A model generated the notes under the pieces. It was given only the letters and a program-made list of their open reading frames with translations, did not search any database and was not told the origin of the DNA. A stretch of DNA of 64,000 bases from Cellulophaga fucicola (GTDB taxonomy: Bacteria; Bacteroidota; Bacteroidia; Flavobacteriales; Flavobacteriaceae). Shown here one piece after another: positions 13,747 through 37,361 of the stretch (positions are counted from its first letter, which is position 1; the number at the start of each line of letters is the position of its first letter). A program made the position numbers and the translations under genes. The stretch is taken from contig NZ_FPIY01000001.1 in assembly GCF_900119145.1 (NCBI RefSeq), positions 558,001-622,000 on the forward strand, written 5' to 3'.

Positions 13747-13812
13747 TTCACAGAAAACCAAACCCTATTCACAGATAGTATCTAAATGCTATGTTTGTTC
13801 TCTGCATCTTTG
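13747..13812 (+). promoter_or_regulatory. CotH promoter module with 21-bp-spaced TTCACAGA repeats
   Basis: TTCACAGA at 13747-13754 and again at 13768-13775, offset exactly 21 bp, then a -7 element CATCTTTG at 13805-13812, then 32 nt to the ATG. All three distances are identical in front of the YHYH operon (24296-24361). The first repeat is part of a 13-mer, TTCACAGAAAACC, present in both loci. The 21-bp offset is typical of LytTR-domain binding sites. The binding protein is inferred, not shown. Confidence 0.65.
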
Positions 13813-13844
13813 AGCCAGATTAATAACTATAATAAGACTTAAGG

Positions 13845-15302
13845 ATGAAAAAAAATAATTCGATATTGCTATTAGCATTACTAAATTTTATGTTTTTACT
13901 ATCGTGTTCTTCAGATTCTGAATCTACAGCAGACGATTTAGAAGAAACGGAAGAAACAGAATCGTATGTAGAAATGTATGAAGATTCTGACTTTACGGCT
14001 ACAGATTGGACAGACAATACGCATAGTAAAAGTGCAGATCCTAATTTTGAAGAAATTTTTCCTAATACAAAAGTAAATCGTTTAGACTTAGTTGTTACCA
14101 AAGATCGTTGGCAAAGTATGTTAGATGATATGACAACCAATTATGGCGAATTTGGAACCACTACAGGTGGTCCTGGAGCTGGTGGCCCTCCTGCAGGTGG
14201 TGGCGAATTGGTAGAAGCAGATGAGGATCCTATTTTTGTTCCTGCAGATGTATTTTACGAAGGTAAAGAATGGTATAGAGTTGGTATACGTTTTAAAGGA
14301 AACTCTAGCTTACAATCTACTTGGTCTAGCGGAAACTTAAAATTGTCTTTTAAACTTGATTTTGATGAGTTTGAAGATGAATACCCACAAATAGACAACC
14401 AACGCTTTTACGGATTTAAAAAATTGAGTTTAAAAAATAACTACAATGATAAATCTATGCTTAGAGAAAAAGTAGCTGCCGATGTATTTACAGCTGCAGG
14501 CTTGGTAAGTTCGCATACGGCATTTTATACAGTATACGTAGATCACGGAGACGGACCTGTGTATTTTGGATTGTATACTTTGGTAGAAGAAGTTGATGAT
14601 ACTGTTATAGATACACAGTTTTCTGATGATGATGAAAATTTATACAAACCAGATGGCGATGGAGCTAGTTTTGCAGAAGGTTCTTTTTCTGAAGAGGTAT
14701 TTGTAAAGAAAACAAATGAAGACGAAGCAGATTATTCTGATATATTAAGTGTTTTTGATGCTTTGCATGCAAGCAACAGAACAACAGATCCTGAAGCTTG
14801 GAGAACAAATTTAGAATCGGTTTTTGATACAGATCAGTTTTTAAAATATTTAGCAGTAAACACGGTAATTCAGAACTGGGATACGTATGGTAGAATGACG
14901 CACAATTACTTTTTATACAACAATCCAGATACCGATAAATTACAATGGATTCCTTGGGATAATAACGAGGCCTTACAACAAGGTAATATGCAAGGTTCTT
15001 TAGCCTTAGATTTCTCTGACTTAAACGAAGAAGAATGGCCTTTAATTGGGTATTTATATGCAGATGAAACATATAAACTACAATACAACTCTTATGTGCA
15101 AGATGTTATAGACAATGCCTTTAATGCAAGTACATTACAAGCAACATATACTACGTATGCATCTTTAATAGAGCCGTATGCAACCACAGAAATTACAGGA
15201 CATACATTTTTAAACTCTAGTACAGATTTTAGTACGGCAGTAAACGAATTAAAAAATCACGTTACAGAACGTGCAACAGCAGTACAAAATTATTTAGATT
15301 AG
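13845..15302 (+). CDS. CotH-kinase family lipoprotein
   Basis: A 485-residue lipoprotein (lipobox FLLSC, Cys21) followed by an acidic linker rich in Asp and Glu. The CotH core is visible as WYRVGIRFKGNSS, KKLSLKNNYNDKSMLREKVA, PVYFGLYTLVEEVD, then WDTYGRMTHNYFLYNN and LQWIPWDNNEAL. CotH proteins are atypical protein kinases, best known from Bacillus spore coats; bacterial lipoprotein forms have unknown substrates. A Gly/Pro tract (GGPGAGGPPAGGG, residues 108-120) interrupts the N-terminal region and resembles tracts in the YHYH protein and the protein at 26043. The promoter is built like that of the YHYH operon. The acidic sequence after Cys21 suggests surface exposure. Confidence 0.88.
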   Translation: MKKNNSILLLALLNFMFLLSCSSDSESTADDLEETEETESYVEMYEDSDFTATDWTDNTHSKSADPNFEEIFPNTKVNRLDLVVTKDRWQSMLDDMTTNYGEFGTTTGGPGAGGPPAGGGELVEADEDPIFVPADVFYEGKEWYRVGIRFKGNSSLQSTWSSGNLKLSFKLDFDEFEDEYPQIDNQRFYGFKKLSLKNNYNDKSMLREKVAADVFTAAGLVSSHTAFYTVYVDHGDGPVYFGLYTLVEEVDDTVIDTQFSDDDENLYKPDGDGASFAEGSFSEEVFVKKTNEDEADYSDILSVFDALHASNRTTDPEAWRTNLESVFDTDQFLKYLAVNTVIQNWDTYGRMTHNYFLYNNPDTDKLQWIPWDNNEALQQGNMQGSLALDFSDLNEEEWPLIGYLYADETYKLQYNSYVQDVIDNAFNASTLQATYTTYASLIEPYATTEITGHTFLNSSTDFSTAVNELKNHVTERATAVQNYLD

Positions 15303-15324
15303 TAATTAGTTGAGTTAGTTTTTT

Positions 15325-15355
15325 AAGCCAGTTATTTTAAATAACTGGCTTTTTT
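15325..15355 (+). terminator. Terminator after the CotH gene
   Basis: Stem AAGCCAGTTATT / AATAACTGGCTT with a 3-nt loop and a T-run after it. Confidence 0.9.
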
Positions 15356-15405
15356 GTGTTGTATAAACAAACAATCGCATATGGCTTTAGGTTTTAAAAA
15401 AAGGC

Positions 15406-15433
15406 ATAAAAAAACCGACCTTTTTTGGTCGGT
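15406..15433 (-). terminator. Terminator after rpoD
   Basis: On the minus strand, ACCGACC, a loop of six A, GGTCGGT and then seven T. It lies 27 bp beyond the rpoD stop. Confidence 0.88.
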
Positions 15434-15459
15434 ATTTATTTGTGGGGAAAAGGACCTTT

Positions 15460-16320
15460 TTACAGGTATGCTTTTAATACTTGGTTTTGAGATTTTCTGC
15501 GCAGTATTACAATTGCTTTTTCTCTAATTTGTCTAACGCGTTCTCTACTTAATTCAAACACTTCACCAATCTCAGAAAGGCTCATAGGAGCTTTTTCTCC
15601 AATACCGTAATACAGGCGTATAATTTCGCTTTCTCTACTAGGTAAGGTTTTTAATAACTGTGTAATGTCAGAACTTAAAGATTCTTTAATCATATTAACA
15701 TCAGGACTTGTTACGTCTTTAGATTGTATAACAGTGTATAGGTTAGATGTTTCTCCGTCTTCAAAAGGAGCATCCATAGACAAGTGTTTACCAGAGTTTT
15801 TCATAGCAGTTTTAACCTGTGATGTACTCATATCTAATTCTCTAGCAATTTCTACAGCGCTAGGAGGTCGTTGGTAATTTTGTTCTAAAGAAGAAAAGAC
15901 TTTGTTAATTTTACTAATCTCTCCAATTTTATTTAAAGGTAAGCGTACCATACGAGATAGTTCAGATATTGCTTGTAAGATAGATTGTCTAATCCACCAT
16001 ACTGCGTACGATATAAATTTAAAACCTCTTGTTTCATCAAAGCGTTGTGCAGCTTTAACTAGTCCAACATTTCCTTCATTAATTAAATCTGATAATCTCA
16101 ATCCGCTTCCTTGGTATTGTTTTGCAACCGAAACTACAAAACGTAAATTGGCGTTTACTAATTTGTTAAGTGCAACTTGATCTCCTTCGCGTATTTTTTT
16201 TGCCAGTTCTACTTCCTCATCAATGGTAATCATATCTAGCTTAGATATTTCTTGAAAATACTTTTCTAATGATTTAGTATCTCTGTTTGTAATTTGCTTC
16301 GTGATCTTTAGTTGCCTCAT
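15460..16320 (-). CDS. rpoD: Primary sigma factor RpoD/SigA, short Bacteroidota type
   Basis: At 286 residues it has the normal length of the Bacteroidota housekeeping sigma factor, which lacks region 1.1. Region 1.2 (DTKSLEKYFQEIS), region 2 with the DLINEGNVGLVKAAQRFDETRGFKF block start (residues 82-106) and the -10-reading SYAVWWIRQSI, region 3 and region 4 with the helix-turn-helix LSEIGEVFELSRERVRQIREKA are all present. It directs transcription from promoters of the TTG/TAnnTTTG form found throughout this window. It is monocistronic, ending at a strong terminator. No sign of a second sigma gene in the window. Confidence 0.97.
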   Translation of the reverse strand: MRQLKITKQITNRDTKSLEKYFQEISKLDMITIDEEVELAKKIREGDQVALNKLVNANLRFVVSVAKQYQGSGLRLSDLINEGNVGLVKAAQRFDETRGFKFISYAVWWIRQSILQAISELSRMVRLPLNKIGEISKINKVFSSLEQNYQRPPSAVEIARELDMSTSQVKTAMKNSGKHLSMDAPFEDGETSNLYTVIQSKDVTSPDVNMIKESLSSDITQLLKTLPSRESEIIRLYYGIGEKAPMSLSEIGEVFELSRERVRQIREKAIVILRRKSQNQVLKAYL

Positions 16321-16501
16321 ATATGTGTTTTAGTTAATATTTCTCTTACCTTATTATACCATTTTATTTACGTAATTCCTAATTAAAAGGCATATTTTAT
16401 CAATTTTTTGTTAAAAAATAGTTATTTAGGGTTAAAATAGTACTTTTTTAGATTTTTGTAAAAACAAGAAAATACGTTAACAAGTTGATAGGTAGTGAAC
16501 T

Positions 16502-16541
16502 AAAAATGCCTTTCTGAAGAATACTTCAAAAAGGCATTTTT
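16502..16541. terminator. Bidirectional terminator between the beta-helix gene and rpoD upstream region
   Basis: Long stem AAAAATGCCTTTCTGAAG / CTTCAAAAAGGCATTTTT with a 4-nt loop (one internal mismatch). It lies 22 bp after the stop of the minus-strand beta-helix gene. Confidence 0.85.
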
Positions 16542-16562
16542 GTATTTAAATTATACTAAATG

Positions 16563-17939
16563 TTACCAACCGTCTAAAACGCACTGCATAGTATATGGTT
16601 TGGTTGTAGATAAAGGTAAATCTTGTAGCTCATCACCCAAATAATTACCACTAGCAGAACCAGTAGCATTTTTAAAACGATAAGACCAACAGTACCTAAG
16701 GTTGGTATGTTCTTCTGAATATGTTACTAAATTATCTTCTAGAATTACATTGTCAAAATCTGAGAATGCTAAAAAGTAGCCTAAAAACTTGTTTCTACGT
16801 ACATCTGCATCTGCACTTTTGTACATATACATTCCGCAATTGTTAAGTACGTTGTCGTGTACATAAGTAGCTCTGTTGTGTCCTTTATCTCCACCACTAG
16901 AATATTGTATGTAACCCAGCCTACCATTTACAGAGCCGCTAAGCATTGTAATTGTATTTCTGGCAATAATGTTGTGGGTTTTATGCCAAGAAACAAGAGG
17001 ACCATCTATATATACGTTACCATCTCCTTGCTCTAATATGTTATCTAAAATATAAACGTTTTTACCACTAGTGTTTACAATGTCTCCGCCTTTGTTATGG
17101 TGAAAGTAATTGTTATGTATTAAAATGTCTTCATCTACACGGCCAGCACCCTCTATGTCTATTCCAAATTGTGGACTAGTACCATTTATATTATGTATTT
17201 CATTATCTGTAATAGTAATACGTTTGCCACCAACAATAGAAATTCCTTGTCTACGGTTGTTAAAAATGTTATTGTTTGTAAAAGTAACATCTGTAGCATC
17301 TAGGACTAAAGAACCATCGCCTGTTGTATCTTTAATAACCATATTATCTATTAAAACAATGTTACTATCGTTCCAAACACAAATACCATGACCCTCATCA
17401 TGAGATGTAGCACCATCACTTTCGCGAGGTGTAAAAATATGAGAATCTCTATCACCCTTAATTGTACCATCTCTAACAATAATATTATCGCCATCTAAGC
17501 TAATAATACAGTAGTTCCATTTGTCGTTTGTATCCATTTCTAATACGGCACCTTCACTAAAGACAAACTCTGTATTGTTGTGTATTTCTATGCCACCTTG
17601 GTATATTTCGTTTACATCTTTACCAACAAGGTATTCACCTTTTGGTAATGTAACCATACCAAAACCCTCGTCATAAGCCCAGTCTATTGCAGCTTGTAAA
17701 TTAGCAGTTGTAGTAACAGGGTCTGTGCCGTTGTTAGGTATATTCCACTGCTCTAAATCTATAATGTATTCTTGTATGTTGGTTACTTCTGGTTGCTTAG
17801 AGCTAAAGGCTAGTTTTGGCAAACCATCACCGTCTAAGTCTTCTGCAGTAACTTTATTAACTACGTCTAACTCGTCCTTATTACAAGAGGTTAGGCATAC
17901 AAGTAGGGCTAAAAATAAAGAATGGGATACTTTTTTCAT
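16563..17939 (-). CDS. Right-handed beta-helix repeat lipoprotein
   Basis: A 458-residue lipoprotein (lipobox LTSC, Cys19; next residues NKDELD match the K-acidic surface-export pattern of flavobacterial lipoproteins). After a short DLDGDGLPK segment that looks like a calcium-binding loop, the protein opens like pectate-lyase-type helices (ANLQAAIDWAYDEGFGMVTLPKGEYLV start at residue 82) and then shows repeated coils with NNxIFNNRRQGISI, ITDNEIHN, IHNNYFHHN and YILDNIL. The fold is shared by polysaccharide lyases, glycosidases and epimerases acting on alginate, pectin and carrageenan. No catalytic motif I can name is visible, so activity is left open. Being near the GH82 gene hints at algal polysaccharide use. 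Confidence 0.75.
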   Translation of the reverse strand: MKKVSHSLFLALLVCLTSCNKDELDVVNKVTAEDLDGDGLPKLAFSSKQPEVTNIQEYIIDLEQWNIPNNGTDPVTTTANLQAAIDWAYDEGFGMVTLPKGEYLVGKDVNEIYQGGIEIHNNTEFVFSEGAVLEMDTNDKWNYCIISLDGDNIIVRDGTIKGDRDSHIFTPRESDGATSHDEGHGICVWNDSNIVLIDNMVIKDTTGDGSLVLDATDVTFTNNNIFNNRRQGISIVGGKRITITDNEIHNINGTSPQFGIDIEGAGRVDEDILIHNNYFHHNKGGDIVNTSGKNVYILDNILEQGDGNVYIDGPLVSWHKTHNIIARNTITMLSGSVNGRLGYIQYSSGGDKGHNRATYVHDNVLNNCGMYMYKSADADVRRNKFLGYFLAFSDFDNVILEDNLVTYSEEHTNLRYCWSYRFKNATGSASGNYLGDELQDLPLSTTKPYTMQCVLDGW

Positions 17940-18139
17940 GTTGTTTTTTTCTAATTTAATAGGTTGTAAAAACTATGTTATATCTAAATTTAGATATAAC
18001 AATGCATAAAATAGTAAACTGATTTTTTCTTTAATTAGTATTATAAAGAAGCACAACTTTGTTTTTTTAGAGGCATCTTATTCTTTGATAATTAACTTAA
18101 AAGCTATAGTTAATAGGAGGGAAGAGTCTATTTTAAAAT

Positions 18140-19534
18140 TTACTCTAAACTACTAATAATGTTTAGAAATTTATACTTACTATTAAACAACTTGTATTCT
18201 GTATCTATTTCTTTAAGCTGACTTTCTATTAGTTTTACTTCTCTGTAATTAACTAAAAAAAGAGAACCTTCGCCCAAATTAAACATACGTTCTTCTGCGG
18301 TTACCAACCTTGTATAATCTATGACTAAACTCTTTAAAATGGAATGCTGTACTTGGTAAGACTCAATTTCTTGTAAACTACTATTTATTTTATTTTTTAA
18401 ACTCACTTTTGTAGCCATAATATCAAAGTCTACATCTTGCAGCTTTACTTTGGCTAACTTTAAATCTGCACGTTCTTTTCTTAAAAATAAAGGGAAGCTA
18501 ATAGCTAAACCAGTTTTGTAATTGGCAGTATTAAAGCTATTAAGATTTTCATAATCTGCACTTAAAAAGTTATACTGCAAATCTATTTTAGGCAATAGGT
18601 TGTTTGTTTTATAGCGCTTATCTATTGTTAAAATATTCTTTTTAATTTCTAATGCTCTTAATTTAGGATGATTTTCTATTAAATTATCTGTTGTATCGTT
18701 TAAAAGTGAACTATTAAGTACAGCGTCTATAGTAGCAATGGTGTTTATGTCTGGTGTAATGTTATCTTCAATCTCTAATGGTACATTGTTTTGCAACCAT
18801 AAAAAGTTAGAAACTTCTAGGGTCGATTTTAAATAACCAATTTTTGCTTTTTCTAAATCTAACAATCTATTTTTGTAATTAATGCCAGCCTCTAGCGTAT
18901 CTATTGCAGGTTTATCACCAGCTCTAAAGCTCTTTTTTACGTTTTGTAAACGTGTGTCTGCATTTACCAAATAGCTTTTGTAAGCAACAACAGCTTTGTA
19001 GTTTTTTAGCCAATTAAAATAAGACTCAGATGCGTTGTACAAAAAGTCGCTAATTACCAATTTTTGTTTTGCTTCTGCTTGTTCTGTATATAGTTTGGCT
19101 TGTTTTAGGGTTGCCATTCTTTTATTGGTAAGCAAACCTTTTGCAAGCGATACAGAAACACCAGCACTATACAAACCATCTTCTGGCGTATTGTATTCTG
19201 GGTTTAGATAAACCCCTTCGTTATTTTCATAATTTGCTTTTAGCTCTATACCATACCAGGTAGGTATTTTAAAAGTAGCGTTTAGCTTATCATAATAATC
19301 TGTGTTTTTAAACTTTTTATTGGCAAAATCTACTTCTAATTTAGGATCAAAAGCACCTCTAGATTTTAGTAATTTAGCTTCGCCCTCTGTAGTTATAAGA
19401 CGCGCTTGTTTAACTATAGGGTGGTACTTTTTTACATAACCTAAATATTCCTCTAGACTTAATATAGTATCTGTTTTTTGCGAAAATGTCACAGAAAACC
19501 ATAAAGAACACACAACAATTAGTATTTTTTTCAT
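18140..19534 (-). CDS. TolC-family outer-membrane efflux protein
   Basis: A 464-residue outer-membrane protein with a cleavable signal peptide (ILIVVCSLWFSVTFSQ). It has the two long-helix repeats of the family: residues 25-230 (LSLEEYLGYVKKYHPIVKQARL ends near 47) and 260-460 (LIENHPKLRALEIKKNILTIDKRYKTNNLLPKIDL segment), with short strands (FPLFLRKERADLKLAK). It is the outer exit duct of the export system; its ATG sits one base inside the stop of the HlyD-like gene, so the two are translationally coupled. It is the last gene of the TetR operon. Confidence 0.87.
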   Translation of the reverse strand: MKKILIVVCSLWFSVTFSQKTDTILSLEEYLGYVKKYHPIVKQARLITTEGEAKLLKSRGAFDPKLEVDFANKKFKNTDYYDKLNATFKIPTWYGIELKANYENNEGVYLNPEYNTPEDGLYSAGVSVSLAKGLLTNKRMATLKQAKLYTEQAEAKQKLVISDFLYNASESYFNWLKNYKAVVAYKSYLVNADTRLQNVKKSFRAGDKPAIDTLEAGINYKNRLLDLEKAKIGYLKSTLEVSNFLWLQNNVPLEIEDNITPDINTIATIDAVLNSSLLNDTTDNLIENHPKLRALEIKKNILTIDKRYKTNNLLPKIDLQYNFLSADYENLNSFNTANYKTGLAISFPLFLRKERADLKLAKVKLQDVDFDIMATKVSLKNKINSSLQEIESYQVQHSILKSLVIDYTRLVTAEERMFNLGEGSLFLVNYREVKLIESQLKEIDTEYKLFNSKYKFLNIISSLE

Positions 19535-20895
19535 TAGGCTTTCTTTTTGTCTTTAGAATCGGTTTTTTTAGCTGTAGGCTGATAAAAATTTGGAGGAAAA
19601 CTGTTTATTTGTCTCCAAAGTTCAAACCAAATAGGTACGTTCTCTAACAAAGCAATGGTTTTAGCACCAGAGCCTACACGTATAGCTGTTGGCCAAGCTA
19701 CCATATTAGAATCGGGCTTTAAAAGCACACGATATTTACCATTATTACTAATAAAATTTTCTATAGCAACAATTTTAGCACCATACGTACCATAAGACAC
19801 ATTTGGCCAACCGCTAAATACAATTGCAGGCCAACCATCAAACTGTACACGTACTTCTTCACCAACGTGTATTAAAGGTAAGTCTATTGGTTTTACATAC
19901 ATTTCTACTGCCAACTCGTAATCTGCGGGCATAATACTTACCAAAGGCTCACCTTCTTTAAAGGTTTCACCCAAACCGGCTTTTATTGTTTTGTTTATAA
20001 AGCCAGCTTGTGGCGCAGTAATAAATAATAAACTGTTTCGTTTTTTGTAATTGGCTAAATTGGTCTCTAGTTTAGACACTTGTGCTTCTATATCTAATCC
20101 ACCAGATTGTGCAGTGTATAAACTACTTTGTGCTTTGGCAATTTTATCTGCGTATGTAGCGCCTAAAGTAGCAATTGCAAGCTCACTGTTAATAGCATCT
20201 TGTCTTGTACTTAGTAATTTATTTTGTTGCGATATTAACTTGGCGTTTACCTCTTGGTATTTAGAACGTTTTTCTTCTACATCTTTTACAGCTTTTAAAC
20301 CATCTTCTTGCAACTGTATTGTACGTAAATACTGTTTGTTTGCAATATCTGCGTTAATTTTTAAAGCTTCTAAATCTATGCTATCGCTTACTACTTTTAA
20401 GAGTGTTTGTTTTACCTTGTTTTTTGCTTGTTCTAGTTTTAAACGGCGTTCTTGTTGCAATGCGTTAATCTGACTCTGTAATGCGTTTACTTTGTTTTTA
20501 TAAGCTGTAACAGAAGATGATTTTGCTGTAATTTGGTTGTCTGTACGCTCTGCCAAGCGCTCATCAAAATACTCACTTTTTACTTCAGAAATCCTAAGTA
20601 TAGTATCTCCCTTTTTTACAAAATTACCCTCTTGTACAAACCATTCTTCTACACGCCCAGGAATCTGAGATTGCAATGTTTGTGGTCTTTGGTTTGGTTT
20701 TAAAGTAGTAACATTACCCTGACTAGATATATTTTGCGTCCACGGTAGAAACAAAATGAGAATTAAAATAACAGTAAAAATCAATAAGAACTTTTTAAAG
20801 CCTTTGTTGTATTCTTTTGTAAAAATATCTTTACCAGACTTGTACTTTGTCAAGTCAATAAATTCAGATACTTTATTGTTAGATATATTTAGCAT
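19534..20895 (-). CDS. HlyD-family membrane fusion protein
   Basis: A 453-residue periplasmic adaptor. An N-terminal cytosolic segment leads to one membrane helix (FLLIFTVILILILFLPW, about residues 34-50), then a split biotinyl-lipoyl domain (GRVEEWFVQEGNFVKKGDTI), a long coiled-coil hairpin (residues 105-270) and the returning lipoyl strand (FITAPQAGFINKTIKAGLGE). It ends with a beta-barrel domain (VRVQFDGWPAIVF). It connects the ABC protein downstream of TetR with the TolC-like exit duct, in type I secretion or drug export fashion. It starts 3 bp after the ABC gene. Confidence 0.87.
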   Translation of the reverse strand: MLNISNNKVSEFIDLTKYKSGKDIFTKEYNKGFKKFLLIFTVILILILFLPWTQNISSQGNVTTLKPNQRPQTLQSQIPGRVEEWFVQEGNFVKKGDTILRISEVKSEYFDERLAERTDNQITAKSSSVTAYKNKVNALQSQINALQQERRLKLEQAKNKVKQTLLKVVSDSIDLEALKINADIANKQYLRTIQLQEDGLKAVKDVEEKRSKYQEVNAKLISQQNKLLSTRQDAINSELAIATLGATYADKIAKAQSSLYTAQSGGLDIEAQVSKLETNLANYKKRNSLLFITAPQAGFINKTIKAGLGETFKEGEPLVSIMPADYELAVEMYVKPIDLPLIHVGEEVRVQFDGWPAIVFSGWPNVSYGTYGAKIVAIENFISNNGKYRVLLKPDSNMVAWPTAIRVGSGAKTIALLENVPIWFELWRQINSFPPNFYQPTAKKTDSKDKKKA

Positions 20896-20898
20896 AGT

Positions 20899-22566
20899 CT
20901 ATTTTTTGTTGTTAATTATAACTCCGTTCTTAAGTGTAATTTGTTTGTTACACTTTTTCTCCCAACTCTTGTTATTGCTTACAATAACCAAACTCCAAGA
21001 GTGCGTAGCTAGCGTTAAATAATTAATAATTGCTGTTGCTTCTTGCGAGTCAAACAAGTCTAACGGATTCTCTAATATCAATAGTTTTGGTTGCTTAACA
21101 ACAGCCCTAGCCAAGACCAATTTTTTAGTAGCTGTATAAGAAATTTGCTTTCCTTCTGGTATTAACATTGTATTTAAACCATTTGGTTGCTGCTTTAAAA
21201 ATGGTGTTAAGCCTAAGTTTTCAAAAGTGTTATAAATAGTGGCATCAGAAATATCTTTGTTACCAAATGTAATGTTCTCTCTAATGGTTCCTTCAAAGGT
21301 AGTTTCTTCAAAAAGAGACATTCCTAAAATAGCTCTGTATTTATTAATGTATAAACTCTCTATAGACAAATTGTTTACGTGTATATAGCCCTCTGTAGGG
21401 AAGGTAACACCAGCAATAAGTTGCAATAGGGTAGACTTACCAGAACCACTCTCTCCAGATATTAAAATACGGTCTTTAGGGTTTATGGTAAAAGATATAT
21501 CTTTAAGTAAAGGCGTATTATTTTCGTTTACTTTATAAAATACATTTTTAAGCTCAACAGTTAAGTCCTCATTGTTATCTAACAATTCGCCTTCTTGCGC
21601 TTCTATAGGTTTGTCTACAACTTGCCCTAGTTTTTCTATGGCAGTTAGTACATCATAAAAAGACTCTAAACCTAAAATTAGTTTTTCAACCGAGTTTATA
21701 ACCAAAAGAATAATAATCTCTGCGGCAACAAATTGTCCAATATTCATACGTTGGTCTAGAACTAAAAAACCACCAATAGAAAGTAATCCAGCTGTAACAA
21801 TAACTTTAAAACCAACCATTTGTAAAAACTGAATCTTTAGTATTTTAAAATGACTTTCTCTAGATGTTACATAATCACTAACCAAATCATCGGTTTTTTC
21901 TAAAGCTAAAGCCGTTTTTCCAGATAGTTTAAAGCTAATAACAGAGCGCGAAATTTCTTGTAACCAATGCGCAACTTTGTATTTGTTTTTAGACTCTTTT
22001 AAACTTGTATCTAAACCTCTTTGAGACGTATATTTAAAAACAATGTATACCAAAAGCAGTAGCAATACCCCAAATAATATAAAAAATGGATGGTAAAAAG
22101 ATAGCAGAATTAAAGCAAACATTATTTGCAATAGGGCAGATGGTACATCTATTAATATTTTAGACAAGCCTTTTTGTATGGTAAGCGTATCAAAAAAACG
22201 ATTAGCCAATTCTGGAAAGTGAAAATTACGTAACTCGTTCATCTTAATTTTAGGAAAACGGTAACTTAACTCAAAAGACGATCTTGTAAAAATACGTTGC
22301 TGTATGGTTTCTATAATACGAATCTGCATTAGTTTTAAAACGCCCGAAAAAGCAACACCCACAGTAACCAAAACAATTAAAACCACCCAAGAAGCAGAAA
22401 CCTGCGCACCTTGTAGTAAATTAATAATAGTCTGTATACCAATTGGCAAACTTAAAGCTACAATACCCTCAAAAATGGCAAAATAACCTATCTGAAAAAT
22501 GTCTTTGCGCTCTAATTGTAATAGGCCTAAAAAACGTTTCCAAGGAGATAAAGTATTATTTGGCAT
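20899..22566 (-). CDS. ABC transporter (fused membrane/ATPase) with degenerate nucleotide site
   Basis: A 555-residue half-transporter of the type I secretion class: six-helix membrane domain (residues 25-310), then an ABC domain. Walker A is intact (GESGSGKST, 371-379), but the rest is altered: the Q-loop glutamine is missing around 412-420 (AILGMSLFEE), the LSGGQ signature is SYTAT (476-480), Walker B reads LLILENP with Glu499-Asn500 in place of Asp-Glu, and the switch histidine position is Asn (IVSNN, 529-532). As a homodimer it would have no normal catalytic site. It may bind ATP without ordinary turnover or use a different mechanism. The gene overlaps the TetR gene by 11 bp and sits 3 bp before the HlyD gene. 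Confidence 0.85.
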   Translation of the reverse strand: MPNNTLSPWKRFLGLLQLERKDIFQIGYFAIFEGIVALSLPIGIQTIINLLQGAQVSASWVVLIVLVTVGVAFSGVLKLMQIRIIETIQQRIFTRSSFELSYRFPKIKMNELRNFHFPELANRFFDTLTIQKGLSKILIDVPSALLQIMFALILLSFYHPFFILFGVLLLLLVYIVFKYTSQRGLDTSLKESKNKYKVAHWLQEISRSVISFKLSGKTALALEKTDDLVSDYVTSRESHFKILKIQFLQMVGFKVIVTAGLLSIGGFLVLDQRMNIGQFVAAEIIILLVINSVEKLILGLESFYDVLTAIEKLGQVVDKPIEAQEGELLDNNEDLTVELKNVFYKVNENNTPLLKDISFTINPKDRILISGESGSGKSTLLQLIAGVTFPTEGYIHVNNLSIESLYINKYRAILGMSLFEETTFEGTIRENITFGNKDISDATIYNTFENLGLTPFLKQQPNGLNTMLIPEGKQISYTATKKLVLARAVVKQPKLLILENPLDLFDSQEATAIINYLTLATHSWSLVIVSNNKSWEKKCNKQITLKNGVIINNKK

Positions 22567-23236
22567 TTGTTACTGTTTTTAAAGTTAAGTCGGTAAAAAA
22601 GTCTGTTGGTGTTGTAGTAGTATTACAATTGGTAATAGACTTAAAATGTTGTTGTATAAAATGTTGGTGTAAAGATCCCTCTACCATAGTACTAGCATAG
22701 CTTAATGCAAATTTATAGTCTGGGTTGTATGCCAAGATAATATCTGCAATACGCTGTATAGTGCGCTTGTAAGGCATAAAAAAGCCCTCTTTATTATCCT
22801 CGTCTACATCTTTAGTATAGTATACCTTAGAGTTCTCGTTAATAATAATAGAATTAAGTAACACCTCGTTAATATGGCTGTATTTATTGTCTTGTTCTGT
22901 GGTTTTAGTTACCACTTCTATGGCTTTTTTAAGTTTTTCTGTAGCATCTGTAATACTGTAGGTTTCTATAACCAATTGGTATTCTACCCAACCCCAATAC
23001 CAAGCTGTTAAGTACATAAGTAGTTTGTGTTTACTCTCAAAATAACGGTAAATAGAACTCTCGTTAGAACCAATATTAGCACCTAGTTTTTTAAAGTTAA
23101 AATCTTCAAAACCAATTTCTTCTAGAAGAATAATACTGTTTTCTATAATTTTTTTACCTAAAGTAGAAGATTCTGGATCTTTTAAGTAGATGCCTGTTGG
23201 TATTTCTATTTTAATGTTTGATAGTAATGTCTTCAT
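22556..23236 (-). CDS. TetR-family regulator of the export operon
   Basis: A 226-residue protein with a TetR-type N-terminal helix-turn-helix (IIENSIILLEEIGFEDFNFKKLGANIGSNESSIYRYF spans residues 30-66; key part FKKLGANIGSNESSIYRYFESK) and a long helical ligand-binding part. It is the first gene of the operon TetR-ABC-HlyD-TolC and overlaps the ABC gene by 11 bp, so it is co-expressed with the pump it presumably controls. A perfect 17-bp palindrome over the promoter (23261-23277) is the expected operator. The inducing compound is unknown. Confidence 0.85.
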   Translation of the reverse strand: MKTLLSNIKIEIPTGIYLKDPESSTLGKKIIENSIILLEEIGFEDFNFKKLGANIGSNESSIYRYFESKHKLLMYLTAWYWGWVEYQLVIETYSITDATEKLKKAIEVVTKTTEQDNKYSHINEVLLNSIIINENSKVYYTKDVDEDNKEGFFMPYKRTIQRIADIILAYNPDYKFALSYASTMVEGSLHQHFIQQHFKSITNCNTTTTPTDFFTDLTLKTVTNAK

Positions 23237-23254
23237 AGATACAAATTATACGCG

Positions 23255-23277
23255 CAAATATAATAGTATTACTATTA
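23255..23277 (-). promoter_or_regulatory. TetR operon promoter and 17-bp palindromic operator
   Basis: TAATAGTA-T-TACTATTA (23261-23277) is a perfect inverted repeat with 8-bp arms. On the minus strand it runs directly into the -7 element TATATTTG (23262-23255), about 19 bp before the ATG. A dimeric TetR protein bound here would cover the promoter, giving autorepression of the whole export operon. Confidence 0.7.
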
Positions 23278-23497
23278 AAAAAGAAATACAAGCTATTAAT
23301 TAGATGTTGTTTTAATGTAAAATAAATGTAATGTACTGTTTATTATGTGCTTGTACTGATGCTAAAAAACAAAATAAATGATATCTTTAGACGTTAAGTC
23401 GATAAAAACACCAAAATCGCAATAGTTTTAGATTGATAATTTGATGTATGAATATTTAAAAAGAGCTATAGTTGCAGTGAGGAAAATGAGTAAAGGA

Positions 23498-24203
23498 GTC
23501 TAGATTTTTTTGGTTCGTTTTTTTATCAATGAAAAAAATGATCAAATATTGTTTAGTGTACAATTAGTTACCGACACATTTTAATCTCCTTACTACTACA
23601 ATTAAAACACTAGAATTGACAGTTTATTAAATCTTAATCAGAATATTCTTTTTAGGCTGACCTACGAAAGTCTTGAGTAAAACTAAAGTTGAGATTTCGT
23701 GCAAATAATCCGTTTGTTATGAATTCAAACAGCGTTTGAAGAAGTTAGCGGTTATTTAGAAATTGAAACGTATAGTTTAGCAATGGGTTCGTGAGTCTAG
23801 ATTTTTTTGGTTCGTTTTTCTATCAATGAAAAAAATGATCAAATATTGTTTAGTGTGCAATTAGTTCCCGATACATTTTAATCTCCTTACTACTACAACT
23901 AAAACACTAGAATTGAAAGTTTATTAAATCTTAATCAGAATATTCTTTTTAGGCTGACCTACGAAAGTTTTGCGTAAAATTAAAGTTGAGATTTCGTGCA
24001 AATAATCCGTTTGTTATGAATTCAAACAGCGTTTGAAGAAGTTAGCGATTATTTAGAAATTGAAACGTATAGTTTAGCAATGGGTTCGTGAGTCTAGATT
24101 TTTTTGGTTCGTTTTTTTATCAATGAAAAAAATGATCAAATATTGTTTAGTGTACAATTAGTTCCCGATACATTTTAATCTCCTTACTACTATAATTAAA
24201 ACA
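23498..24203. repeat. 297-bp tandem direct repeat, 2.4 copies
   Basis: Copies start at 23498, 23795 and 24092 (each at GTCTAGATTTTTTTGG), a period of exactly 297 bp; the third copy stops after about 112 bp. Copies differ by only a few bases. No long open frame is present, but each unit ends in a short frame reading EVSGYLEIETYSLAMGS-stop, which looks like the decayed end of a gene. Each unit also holds T7/A7 stretches able to fold (TTTTTTTATCAATGAAAAAAA). The 1157-bp gap 23237-24393 holds this repeat, the TetR promoter on its left and the YHYH promoter on its right, and no supported gene. Confidence 0.9.
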
Positions 24204-24295
24204 ATATAACTGATACCATCTACTCTTCAGAAAAAAATGAATAAAAAACCTCTTTTCTACATTTTATAAAATCTAAAAACGAGTACAACCAAGGT

Positions 24296-24361
24296 TTCAC
24301 AGAAAACCTAGCAGCGTTTACAGAAAGTTACTATTTGGTACAGTATCTATACATAGATTTG
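24296..24361 (+). promoter_or_regulatory. YHYH operon promoter module with 21-bp-spaced repeats
   Basis: TTCACAGA at 24296-24303 and TTTACAGA at 24317-24324 (offset 21 bp), then TAGATTTG at 24354-24361, then 32 nt to the ATG at 24394. Repeat offset, repeat-to-promoter distance and leader length all equal those of the CotH gene at 13.8 kb. This points to the same regulator, likely of the LytTR class. Confidence 0.65.
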
Positions 24362-24393
24362 AAATAAAAAATTATAACTCAATCTATAATAAT

Positions 24394-25368
24394 ATGAAAC
24401 TAAAACTAATAAGCATATTTATAGCAACACTAGCTGCTGCTTGTAATAGCAACGATGATTCTAATACTACAACTAACTCAAATGATTTGGTTGTAAGTGT
24501 AGATCCTTCTTTATTTTTAACAAACTCAGGCAACGTAACTGTTACAAAAGTACCTTGTACTTTATCTGACGGTACAGTTACAGATTGTTACGAGATTGTA
24601 ACAACAAGTACACCTACAGACCACGAAATGGGACCTTGGTGTCCAGAAAATATTGCTGATGACGCTTCTAAAGGCGGAATTTGGTTAGAAAATGGTGAAG
24701 TACACGATGTAGATGGTGCTTTTATAGAAAATATGGCCACTTTTTACAACGATACTAAATGGAAAATGTACGATGCCAATGGTGATATCTATACTACAGA
24801 AACCGAAGAAGATTGTGCCAATGCTGCCAACCCAAATGTTGGTGAGGAGTACGAGAATTTTTGTGTAGAGTGTTTACCATCTTATTTAGGAGAACTAACA
24901 CAGACATATACAATACCAGTTACACCAGTAAAACAAAGTAGTACTTATAGTTTTGGTGGCCCTCCAGGACCTCCAGGTGCAAATGGAGCTGGCCCTTCTC
25001 AAAGAGGTGTAGCTTTTAATGGTGTTGTTTTTGATGCTCCGGCACCTACAGACGCTATTTTAGGCGCATATACTTTAGCACCTTTTGATGATGCAGGCGG
25101 ACATATTAATTTAAACGCAGGTTACCATTATCACGCAACTACAGGAGTATCTACGCAAATTGCTCAAGAAGATGACCATGCGGCACAAATTGGGTACGCT
25201 ATGGATGGTCACGGTTTATATGCACAATTAGATGCTAATAGTAAAGAACCTACAGATTTAGACGAATGTAGAGGGCATACAGATAGTGTTAGAGGATACC
25301 ATTACCACGCAGATGCTCCAGGATCTAATAATTTTATAGATTGCCTTTACGGTGCTTACGTTAACTAA
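24394..25368 (+). CDS. YHYH-domain surface lipoprotein
   Basis: A 324-residue lipoprotein (lipobox AAAC, Cys17, followed by an acidic NSNDDSN stretch typical of surface export). The YHYH motif occurs twice, at 244-247 (GYHYHATTG) and 302-305 (GYHYHADAPG), each in the context expected for the YHYH family. Many Cys residues (CPENI, CVECLP, DECRG, DCLYG) suggest disulfides or metal binding. A collagen-like GGPPGPPGANG tract lies at 188-198. The function of the family is unknown; histidine clusters suggest metal binding. It leads an operon with the two genes that follow and shares its promoter layout with the CotH gene. Confidence 0.82.
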   Translation: MKLKLISIFIATLAAACNSNDDSNTTTNSNDLVVSVDPSLFLTNSGNVTVTKVPCTLSDGTVTDCYEIVTTSTPTDHEMGPWCPENIADDASKGGIWLENGEVHDVDGAFIENMATFYNDTKWKMYDANGDIYTTETEEDCANAANPNVGEEYENFCVECLPSYLGELTQTYTIPVTPVKQSSTYSFGGPPGPPGANGAGPSQRGVAFNGVVFDAPAPTDAILGAYTLAPFDDAGGHINLNAGYHYHATTGVSTQIAQEDDHAAQIGYAMDGHGLYAQLDANSKEPTDLDECRGHTDSVRGYHYHADAPGSNNFIDCLYGAYVN

Positions 25369-25381
25369 AAACAATACAACT

Positions 25382-26032
25382 ATGTTTAAAAAATTGCTAT
25401 GTATAGGTATGCTTTTGGTTGCATTAACTACTAAAGCACACCAAACAGATATTTCTACAACAATGTTGGTAGAAAAAGAAAATAATTCTTGGGTTTTGCA
25501 AATTAGCGCATCATTAACGGCTTTTCAGCAAGAAATAAGACTTCATTATGCAGATACACCTTATAAAACACCAGAGGAGTTTAAGCAAATGGTTCTAGAC
25601 CATTTAAAAAAGAATGTAAGTTTTGTTTTTAACGGGTCAAATACTATTACGCTTAGCAATGGTTTTGTACAACTAGGACACGAGACAAAAGTAGTTTTTA
25701 CGGTTGAAGGTGTACCAGCCAAACAAACCAAGTTATTGGTAAAAAACACAGCTTTTACAGACGTTTATAAAAGTAAAAGTGCTCTAGTAATATTAAAAAA
25801 AGGGTTTACAAAAGAGCGTTTTGTACTAAATGAAGCTAACAAACATAGGTTAGAGTTAAGAGCTCAGGATACTAATTTTGTGTTGAGTACAACACAGGAA
25901 GCAAGCATATTCTCTTATCAGAATTTATTTGTAATACTTTGTATTACAGGTATTGGTTTTATGGTAAAAAGAGTGTTTGTGGCTAAGGAAAACGAGGAGG
26001 TAGAGGACCACAAATTAAGAAGACTAAAATAA
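25382..26032 (+). CDS. Hypothetical secreted protein with C-terminal membrane anchor
   Basis: The start at 25382 (MFKKLLCIG) is chosen because it opens directly on a signal peptide ending at TKA/HQ; an earlier frame start would overlap the YHYH gene. The 216-residue product has a beta-rich exported part resembling small DUF6702-type proteins (HQTDISTTMLVEK, then LNEANKHRLEL), which I can only suggest, and a C-terminal membrane helix (NLFVILCITGIGFMVKRV) followed by a basic and acidic tail. It lies 13 bp after the YHYH gene and 10 bp before the next gene, so it is in the same operon. Confidence 0.6.
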   Translation: MFKKLLCIGMLLVALTTKAHQTDISTTMLVEKENNSWVLQISASLTAFQQEIRLHYADTPYKTPEEFKQMVLDHLKKNVSFVFNGSNTITLSNGFVQLGHETKVVFTVEGVPAKQTKLLVKNTAFTDVYKSKSALVILKKGFTKERFVLNEANKHRLELRAQDTNFVLSTTQEASIFSYQNLFVILCITGIGFMVKRVFVAKENEEVEDHKLRRLK

Positions 26033-26042
26033 AGAAAACACT

Positions 26043-26813
26043 ATGAAAATAAAATTAACAATCTTATATTTTTTAATCTGTACCGTTATTATAGCGCAGG
26101 ATAAAGAAACGTTTACAGGAAGTGAAGATAATGTAGAATACAAAGCAATTTTTGACGGCAAAGATGTGTATGTAACATTACGCACAGAGTTTAAAGAAAC
26201 TATGCAATCTATGTTACACCGTGGTTACACCATATATTTTGATGTAAAAGGAAAGAAAAAGAAGAACGTAAGCATACAATATCCTTTAAAGGCAGCAAGA
26301 CCAGAAAAAGGTTCTAGACCAGAAAGAGGAGAACGTAGAGAAAATGATGAAAAAGGTGAGGAAAAAGGTCCAGATATAGCAAAAATGATTGAAAATACCC
26401 CTAAAAAGGCAAATTACACCTATTTTGATTCTTCTGAGGATTTTAATTTAGATATGAATAATTTGGGTATTGTAATGAATTATAGCTATGAAAATAGTGA
26501 AGTAGGTCCAATTTTAGAATATCATTTAAAAATACCAGCATCTAAAATATCTGAAGATACTAGAGATATGTCTAAATTATCTATTGGTATTGTTTCTACC
26601 AAACAAGAACAAAAGAAAAACGGACAACAATCTGGTTTTAGTATGGGAGGAAAACAACGCGGTGGCGGACAAGGCAGACCTCCTGGTGGAGGCGGTGGCC
26701 AAGGTGGTGCAGGAAGAGGTAGTGGCGGAAGACCTCCACAAGGGAATACTACAACAACTGAAGTAGAAAAAATAGATTTTTGGTTTAAGTTATATCCTAA
26801 AAAAATGAAATAA
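26043..26813 (+). CDS. Hypothetical secreted protein with Gly/Pro/Arg-rich tract
   Basis: A 256-residue product with a signal peptide (TILYFLICTVIIAQ). Two regions look beta-rich (residues 20-80 and 130-190); they are separated by a charged segment with PEKGSRPERGERREN. A low-complexity tract of GGGQGRPPGGGGG type fills about residues 203-239 before a final strand (KIDFWFKLYPKKMK). I do not recognise a family. It closes the YHYH operon. The Gly/Pro tract echoes those in the YHYH and CotH proteins, and this may be functional or simply a shared linker type. Confidence 0.6.
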   Translation: MKIKLTILYFLICTVIIAQDKETFTGSEDNVEYKAIFDGKDVYVTLRTEFKETMQSMLHRGYTIYFDVKGKKKKNVSIQYPLKAARPEKGSRPERGERRENDEKGEEKGPDIAKMIENTPKKANYTYFDSSEDFNLDMNNLGIVMNYSYENSEVGPILEYHLKIPASKISEDTRDMSKLSIGIVSTKQEQKKNGQQSGFSMGGKQRGGGQGRPPGGGGGQGGAGRGSGGRPPQGNTTTTEVEKIDFWFKLYPKKMK

Positions 26814-35591: not shown

Positions 35592-36629
35592 ATGTATAAA
35601 AACAGAAAAATAACAGTCTTATCGCATATACTAGTTTGGTTACTTTTATTTAGTATGCCTTACTTATTGTCTTATGGTCAAGAACAAGAAGTTAATAGAG
35701 TTTTAGCACGCTTTTGGATACCGCTAGTGTTCTCAGCTATTATCTTTTACCTCAATTATTTTGTATTAATAGATCAATGTTTTTTTCCAAAGAAAATGGT
35801 ATTGTTTATTACTATAAATGTAATTATTATTGCTTTTTTTCTGTTTTTAAAAGAATATATAGAAGATAATTTTTTTCAAGATATTATTAAAAAACGCTCT
35901 AAGGACAGTGTTAGATCTGGACCAACTTTTAAAATGGGAATCTATATACAAGTACTGTCCTATATGGCACCTTTGTTATTTTCAATAGCTATAAAATCTA
36001 CAAAAAGATGGGCAAAAACAGAAGCAGAGCGTAAAGAAGCTGCTAATTTTAAATTAAAATCAGAGTTGCAACATTTACATTATCAGCTACAACCACATTT
36101 CTTTTTTAATTCTTTAAATAACATTTATGCTTTGGTAGATATTTCTCCAGAACAGGCAAAAACATCTATACATAGTTTAAGTAAACTAATGCGTTATATG
36201 TTGTATGAAACTAATGTAGAATTGATATCGTTGTCTAAAGAAATAGATTTTTTAAAAAAATACATAGAGTTAATGAAACTTCGTGTATCTGATAAAACAG
36301 TTGTAAATTATAGTTTTCCAGCAGAAGAAACAGGTATTAAAATAGCACCTTTATTATTTATTTCATTAATTGAAAATGCTTTTAAACACGGTGTATCTGC
36401 AAGTAAAAAGAGTACAATTAATATAGAAATGATTTGTAAAGAAAAGACGGTATATTTTACAATAAAAAATGATGATTTCCCTAAAAAGATAGATGATAAA
36501 AGTGGCTCTGGAATAGGACTTCCTAATATAGAAAAGCGCTTAGAGTTACTGTATCCAAAGAAATACAACTTTAAAACAACTCTAGAGAACAACCATTTTG
36601 TATCTCATTTAGAAATTGAAACCAACTAG
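35592..36629 (+). CDS. LytS/YehU-type sensor histidine kinase
   Basis: A 345-residue kinase with four N-terminal membrane helices (residues 10-135) and a cytosolic His_kinase module: the phosphoacceptor motif LQPHFFFNSLNNIYAL with His169, then the N box LIENAFKHG and the G box SGSGIGLPN. There is no large external sensor domain, so the signal is probably sensed in the membrane. It lies 5 bp after the permease and 3 bp before the LytTR gene. Pump plus cognate two-component genes in one operon suggests feedback on pump expression or membrane stress sensing. Confidence 0.92.
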   Translation: MYKNRKITVLSHILVWLLLFSMPYLLSYGQEQEVNRVLARFWIPLVFSAIIFYLNYFVLIDQCFFPKKMVLFITINVIIIAFFLFLKEYIEDNFFQDIIKKRSKDSVRSGPTFKMGIYIQVLSYMAPLLFSIAIKSTKRWAKTEAERKEAANFKLKSELQHLHYQLQPHFFFNSLNNIYALVDISPEQAKTSIHSLSKLMRYMLYETNVELISLSKEIDFLKKYIELMKLRVSDKTVVNYSFPAEETGIKIAPLLFISLIENAFKHGVSASKKSTINIEMICKEKTVYFTIKNDDFPKKIDDKSGSGIGLPNIEKRLELLYPKKYNFKTTLENNHFVSHLEIETN

Positions 36630-36632
36630 ATT

Positions 36633-37361
36633 ATGAGCAATATAAAAATTACTTGTGTTATTGTAGATGATGAACCTATGGCGCTTAATTTAGTAAAAAG
36701 CTATGTTGAAAAAACCCCTTTTCTAGAGTTAAAGCAAAAGTGTAGTAGTGCAATTGAAGCTATGGAGTGTATTAAAAACGAACCTGTAGATTTATTATTT
36801 TTAGACATACAAATGCCAGATTTAACAGGCATAGAGTTCTCTAAAATGCTACCAAAAGAAACACGTGTAATATTTACAACTGCGTTTGATGAGTATGCTT
36901 TGGAAGGCTTTAAGGTAGAGGCTTTAGATTATCTATTAAAACCTTTTGATTATGCAGAATTTCTAGCAGCAGCAAACAAAGCAAGTACTTGGTTTTCGTT
37001 AGTAAAAGGAAAAAAACAATCTATAGTTTCAGAAGAAAAAGAATTCCTTTTTGTAAAATCTGAGTACAAGCAATTGCGAATTAAACTTGCAGACGTCTTG
37101 TATTTTGAAGGTTTAAAGGATTATATAAAGATATGGTTAAAGGACAATCCTAAACCTGTTTTAACACTTATGAGTTTAAAGTCTTTAGAAGAGGAGTTGC
37201 CAGAAACTAATTTTATGCGTGTTCATAGATCTTTTATTGTTTCCTTAAAAAATATAGATGTTATAGAACGTAGTCAGATTATTATTAACGACCAACGTAT
37301 TACCGTTTCTGAACAGTACAAACCTCGATTTTTAGAGTTTATAACAAACAATTCGCTTTAA
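36633..37361 (+). CDS. LytTR-family response regulator
   Basis: A 242-residue regulator: receiver domain with acidic pocket VDDEP and phosphoacceptor Asp58 in LLFLDIQMPD, conserved Thr (IFTTAF) and Lys (LLKPFDY), followed by a LytTR DNA-binding domain (residues 140-240: KQLRIKLADVLYFEGLKDYIKI segment, then FMRVHRSFIVSLKNID). LytTR proteins bind direct repeats spaced about 21 bp. It is partnered with the kinase just upstream. It is the only LytTR gene in the window, so it is one candidate, though not a proven one, for the 21-bp repeats found at other loci here. Confidence 0.93.
   Translation: MSNIKITCVIVDDEPMALNLVKSYVEKTPFLELKQKCSSAIEAMECIKNEPVDLLFLDIQMPDLTGIEFSKMLPKETRVIFTTAFDEYALEGFKVEALDYLLKPFDYAEFLAAANKASTWFSLVKGKKQSIVSEEKEFLFVKSEYKQLRIKLADVLYFEGLKDYIKIWLKDNPKPVLTLMSLKSLEEELPETNFMRVHRSFIVSLKNIDVIERSQIIINDQRITVSEQYKPRFLEFITNNSL

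Follow-up and report, generated by a model that had tools for sequence, protein, structure and literature searches.

Whether one regulator governs both CotH-like secreted kinases and YHYH proteins, which to our knowledge have no known role in these bacteria, is the question raised by a stretch of 64,000 nucleotides from Cellulophaga fucicola, here called the window. An earlier note on this DNA had pointed out that a gene for a CotH kinase-like lipoprotein and an operon headed by a YHYH lipoprotein gene, 10 kb apart, share one promoter blueprint, and had proposed a single regulator of the LytTR type acting on one surface process. Read base by base, the common spacing holds exactly: two direct repeats offset by 21 bp, 37 bp from the start of the second repeat to a putative -7 element, and 33 bp from the last base of that element (CATCTTTG before CotH, TAGATTTG before the YHYH operon) to the ATG at 13845 or 24394, with the 13-mer TTCACAGAAAACC common to both promoters. 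This blueprint is very probably the operator-promoter of one two-component system, a kinase/regulator pair encoded on the same contig outside the window, which would jointly activate three operons of envelope genes.

The source genome (G000; 3.92 Mb in 21 contigs, with C8 as the contig label for coordinates outside the window) was searched for the repeat pair alone, TTYACAGA-N13-TTYACAGA, and for the full blueprint, TTYACANA-N13-TTYACNNA-N29-YANNTTTG. Each gave three perfect matches, those to the full blueprint all lying within 40 kb and accompanied by no match with one mismatch; at two to three mismatches, 64 matches on both strands versus 37 for the reversed pattern are near the control and mostly background. 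The window alone gives no significance (nine repeat pairs with up to three mismatches versus 5.3 expected, with 10 of 100 shuffles doing as well), so the analysis turned to counts over the whole genome and over many genomes; the significance of the blueprint comes from its perfect matches and not from relaxed counts in the window. Both loci of the earlier note are members of the proposed regulon in this genome; the third site lies outside the window, so that two of three members had been seen.

This third site (C8:542540-542626), 15 kb before the window, has three repeats 21 bp apart, at 542540, 542561 and 542582, and the same 98 bp from repeat pair to ATG as both window sites. It sits between the kinase/LytTR regulator gene pair and a divergent operon for an EF-hand protein (96 amino acids), a YHYH lipoprotein (278 amino acids), a MORN protein and an SCO1 protein. 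The regulator combines a receiver with a LytTR domain, its cognate LytS/His_kinase-type sensor is encoded in the same operon, and at all three sites, as in relatives, direct repeats with a period of about 21 bp lie upstream of the promoter. The presence of such a pair beside the third site argues for the LytTR-type regulator that had been guessed from the window.

The proposal had been tied to conservation of the module upstream of orthologues and to its concentration on this gene set, and both are found in relatives. Among 100 genomes, the source included, a slightly stricter blueprint with up to one mismatch gave 23 sites in 11 genomes versus one match to the reversed pattern, which served as control. 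Fifteen of these precede genes of the set (EF-hand before YHYH, five; CotH, five; the Gly/Pro-rich protein p256, four; the window YHYH, one), the distance to the ATG being 97-101 bp for EF-hand and CotH. Two more stand before an arylsulfotransferase-like lipoprotein (G013 and G009; L066, L071), five lead to no open reading frame (ORF) but to a terminator and are candidate small RNAs, and a single site is unrelated (G033, L074). A regulator orthologue is present in 10 of the 10 genomes with believable blueprint sites. In a separate choice of 48 genomes, the LytTR regulator has an orthologue (E ≤1e-70) in 28, or 26 once two duplicates are dropped. The 200 bp before the kinase hold the repeat pair in 13, 21 and 25 of these 26 at zero, up to one and up to two mismatches, versus 0, 0 and 31 of 820 background tiles elsewhere, and in 21 of the 26 the distance from the start of a pair to the kinase alignment is 72 or 93 bp.

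The CotH promoters tell a similar story. Within the genus, 12 of 18 Cellulophaga genomes have a CotH orthologue (E ≤1e-60), and 10 of the 12 have the repeat pair upstream with up to one mismatch. The pair lies 94-101 bp before the ATG; at L297 a perfect pair is placed at 122 bp, and at L296, where CotH is inside an operon, the pair has two mismatches. Family-wide, with one genome per genus, CotH was found in 18 of 199 genomes, and a separate scan of 60 CotH relatives in named genomes showed 10 (L153-L160, L163, L211) to have an exact repeat pair no more than about 130 bp before the gene.

Joint function is supported by other genomes, in which genes of the set share a single operon or stretch. 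EF-hand, CotH and YHYH genes lie on one strand of a single stretch in 11 of 17 other genera (L121, L122, L125-L132, L135), and in G010 (L311) EF-hand, CotH, YHYH and DUF6702 are consecutive, with gaps of up to about 90 bp, both window loci forming a single predicted operon there. The module is also found directly upstream of the p256 orthologue in four relatives' loci (L069, L072, L078, L081). The products are exported lipoproteins and metal-/calcium-binding-type proteins (EF-hand, YHYH, SCO1) together with CotH, and a joint envelope process is likely.

In molecular terms, the LytTR regulator, once phosphorylated, would occupy two or three TTYACWNA repeats at a spacing of 21 bp, or two helix turns; two or three regulator molecules on one face of the DNA would activate, rather than repress, by bringing RNA polymerase to promoters whose -7 box is of the CATCTTTG type. 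If the start site is placed 5-7 bp after this box, the repeats would centre about 55 bp before it. The divergent EF-hand/YHYH/MORN/SCO1 operon, CotH and the YHYH/DUF6702/p256 operon would then be activated jointly as one set of envelope proteins. A defined regulator, operator and gene set make the role of CotH-like and YHYH proteins a testable question.

Several observations weigh against joint control by this pair. The source genome carries 17 LytTR domains. No module precedes CotH in G012 (L298), four of the 10 CotH promoters of the genus that have the pair (L291, L292, L293, L295) show no TTTG box where the spacing predicts one, and the kinase promoter of L236 is an exception, having no module at up to two mismatches, a level at which the background climbs to 31 of 820 tiles. 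In addition, the wider consensus TTYACWNA was derived from part of the sites later counted with it and the genomes are related, so that p-values overstate independence.

The alternative that survives best, distinctly unlikely as it is, assigns the sites to a different LytTR regulator, in the first place that of the pair encoded in the window behind a TolC/MacAB-like efflux operon. G031 and four Zobellia loci encode, about 6 kb from CotH, a LytTR regulator with 78-86% identity to this window regulator, but no perfect repeat match lies near the window pair, whereas 21 of 26 genomes have the repeats in the divergent promoter of the other pair. Less probable still is that promoter DNA was recently duplicated in the course of gene rearrangement, with no joint regulation today. 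This reading could draw on the closeness of the three sites, all within 40 kb, and on gene orders that show the set as one operon elsewhere, but the spacing is constant where the intervening and flanking sequence is not, and several genera retain these elements. Chance similarity among AT-rich promoters, where weak versions of the pattern are common, is scarcely credible against 23 sites versus 1 in 100 genomes and 21 of 26 promoters versus 0 of 820 tiles.

Table 1. Elements of the proposed CotH/YHYH regulon and the second LytTR pair (window coordinates unless marked C8)
Feature	Position	Strand	Details
LytTR-type direct repeat pair before CotH	13747..13775 (13747-13754 + 13768-13775)	+	TTCACAGA twice, offset 21 bp
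Putative -7 element before CotH	13805-13812	+	CATCTTTG, 37 bp from second repeat start
CotH kinase-like lipoprotein, 485 aa	13845..15302	+	Pfam CotH 1.4e-73; PDB 5jd9 spore coat protein H, E 4.1e-13
CotH 3' untranslated region with AGTTGAGTTAGTT and terminator	15303..15363	+	like 3' end of G002 unit, E 6.2e-10
LytTR-type direct repeat pair before YHYH operon	24296..24324 (24296-24303 + 24317-24324)	+	TTCACAGA/TTTACAGA, offset 21 bp
Putative -7 element before YHYH operon	24354-24361	+	TAGATTTG, 37 bp from second repeat start
YHYH lipoprotein, 324 aa	24394..25368	+	Pfam YHYH 7.7e-10
DUF6702 protein	25352..26032	+	Pfam DUF6702 8.1e-06
p256, 256-aa Gly/Pro-rich exported-looking protein	26043..26813	+	no Pfam or NCBIfam family at E 0.01 or better
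Window His_kinase-type/LytTR pair	kinase 35592-36629, regulator 36633-37361		behind TolC/MacAB-like genes
LytS-type histidine kinase	C8:541447-542469	-	His_kinase 1.9e-23; same strand as, and adjoining, the regulator
LytTR response regulator	C8:540773-541454	-	Response_reg 8.4e-22 and LytTR 1.1e-20

The proteins of the set (Table 1) are characterised to different degrees. No solved structural relative of the window YHYH lipoprotein was found, and p256 has no Pfam or NCBIfam family at E 0.01 or better. Gly/Pro-rich (GPP-type) stretches, judged by eye from the translations, occur in CotH, YHYH, p256 and the outer loop of the kinase (L031:5447-6469).

Beyond the genus, a different promoter type appears before the same genes. 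In 9 of the 17 genomes other than the source, the stretch carries ACAAGTTT-N13-CATCTAAA (with RCAAGTTT as first-base variant) at up to one mismatch, placed ahead of EF-hand, CotH or YHYH genes and also ahead of genes located after an extracytoplasmic function (ECF) sigma factor encoded in the cluster. That sigma factor is encoded in exactly those nine, the motif being present in 9 of 9 genomes with it and 0 of 8 without, and the exact LytTR pair occurs in 3 of the 8 without (G185, G018, G031) and in 0 of the 9 with it. These nine genera have an ECF-sigma-like promoter and a cluster ECF sigma factor, its putative reader, instead of the LytTR module. Over 46 genomes (two duplicates dropped), a Fisher p of 0.0004 ignores kinship and counts G267, at 42% identity, as positive. 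Strict mutual exclusion of the two regulators was considered and rejected, as the Cellulophaga genomes G005, G009 and G016 hold both; the exclusivity is a tendency. In G009 and G016 a second YHYH/MORN/SCO1 set adjoins the sigma gene, and neither promoter type was found there. As a separate observation, the cluster ECF sigma factor is followed by a 105-aa protein and a Spy-like protein (L126:3297-4818, L128, L131 and others), the latter with a weak Metal_resist match below the cut-off; that metal or envelope stress is the signal of the sigma operon is a guess.

The LytTR module also leads to units that may be non-coding. Six Cellulophaga genomes have repeat pairs ahead of short units that end in a terminator and are candidate small RNAs. 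A module after CotH leads to a terminator with no ORF in G002, G011 and G015, and G011 has lost CotH itself; tandem arrays of seven units in G017 (L150:6345-8550) and four in G004 (L149:9697-10491) belong to genomes with no CotH orthologue, and G013 has a single unit, where an 81-aa ORF begins inside the terminator. The repeat pair is kept with up to one mismatch in 3 of 7 and 3 of 4 array units, respectively, and the others retain one good repeat and the -7 box. Fifteen units align over a conserved segment that resembles TTGAGTTAGTT and over a terminator stem, in which 6 pairs changed on both sides versus 3.1 in shuffles (5 of 500 shuffles reach 6), with three rows, the G002 group, off register for the common stem. 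No Rfam family was found at gathering score.

The likeness of the CotH 3' untranslated region (UTR) to the 3' end of the G002 unit suggests that the units may derive from such a 3' UTR. A covariance model built from the 15 units matches this region weakly (E 0.11). It gave 33 matches with E no worse than 0.5 across 55 stretches: the model's own units account for 14 and antisense matches within arrays for three, and 13 of the remaining 16 fall at 3' ends of set genes; the matches are mostly weak (four below E 0.02), and several have only the terminator stem in common. Exact copies of the 11-mer TTGAGTTAGTT number 17 in 1.10 Mb (L119 and L127 left out as duplicates) versus 3 and 3 for two scrambles, three of the 17 being at set gene ends; at one mismatch, 50 versus 38 and 38 is no clear excess in the same 1.10 Mb.

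The leader of an ECF sigma gene in the source genome (C8:16307-16798) is antisense to the units of G002, G011 and G015, with uneven statistics. By BLAST, the G002 unit is antisense to the leader in the source genome at E 2.5e-5 and in G003 at E 6.1e-4. For unit and leader of the same genome, 28 of 300 dinucleotide shuffles give as good a duplex energy in G015; under a cruder block shuffle, those as good out of 100 number 2 (G002), 0 (G011), 8 (G015), 13 (G017_1), 5 (G017_3) and 52 (G004_1). The G002 unit against the source-genome leader is matched by 0 of 300 and 0 of 100 shuffles, in a genome that has no G002 unit, and the source's own CotH 3' UTR by 77 of 300. The ECF sigma mRNA as a target of these units is a lead only.

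A broader evolutionary scenario is speculative and probably not correct as a whole: the gene set would have swapped its master regulator in flavobacterial evolution, with a cluster ECF sigma factor in some genera and the LytTR system in others; within the lineage that uses LytTR, an element from a 3' UTR of the set would have given rise to independent small RNA genes that carry LytTR promoters of their own and form tandem arrays, and the G002, G011 and G015 units would pair with the translation start of the unrelated ECF sigma factor mRNA. If the exchange of sigma factor and LytTR system holds, it would be a clean case of a gene set changing its control system with its membership still recognisable. 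The arrays, if true, would represent multicopy small RNAs under LytTR control, a kind of circuit of which there are few descriptions in this phylum.

No description of a CotH/YHYH/LytTR regulon was found in the literature searched, which mostly excluded subscription papers, and comparison is therefore with systems that share parts of it. The accessible part of PMC7112168 places CotH with a polyphosphate polymerase and DUF4956 beside pel genes in streptococci, clostridia and bifidobacteria. The row of VTC, DUF4956, DUF2490 and CotH in G209 (L126) is like these Pel-linked associations; those stretches of the source genome whose proteins were scanned yielded neither a VTC nor a DUF4956 gene, and the EF-hand, YHYH, MORN and SCO1 companions are not met in the associations of that part of the paper. 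The short terminator-ended units, several in number and with two-component promoter sites, resemble LhrC of Listeria under LisRK, as far as the accessible part of PMC4132741 describes it; unlike LhrC, they have LytTR sites, belong to Flavobacteriaceae and are known from sequence alone.

Further parallels are with LytTR systems themselves. In the portion of PMC6193735 that is openly available, Bacteroides LytTR sites are 9-bp repeats with 12-bp spacers, such as ACCACTTAT, together with a TATCTTTG -7 element. The CATCTTTG box of the window fits this Bacteroidetes -7 type, and the repeats are like the ACCACTTAT type, a resemblance of sequence only. A similar extract of PMC4227749 has AgrA repeats centred near -60, close to the position of about 55 bp before the putative start site here. 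Overall, going by these portions of the two sources, the proposed regulon shares with AgrA and HdrR/BrsR the LytTR domain, direct repeats of 21-bp period just upstream of the promoter and an autoregulatory placement. It differs from them in its TTYACWNA repeat, often present three times in the divergent promoter, in its CotH, YHYH and EF-hand lipoprotein targets, and in having candidate small RNAs among those targets.

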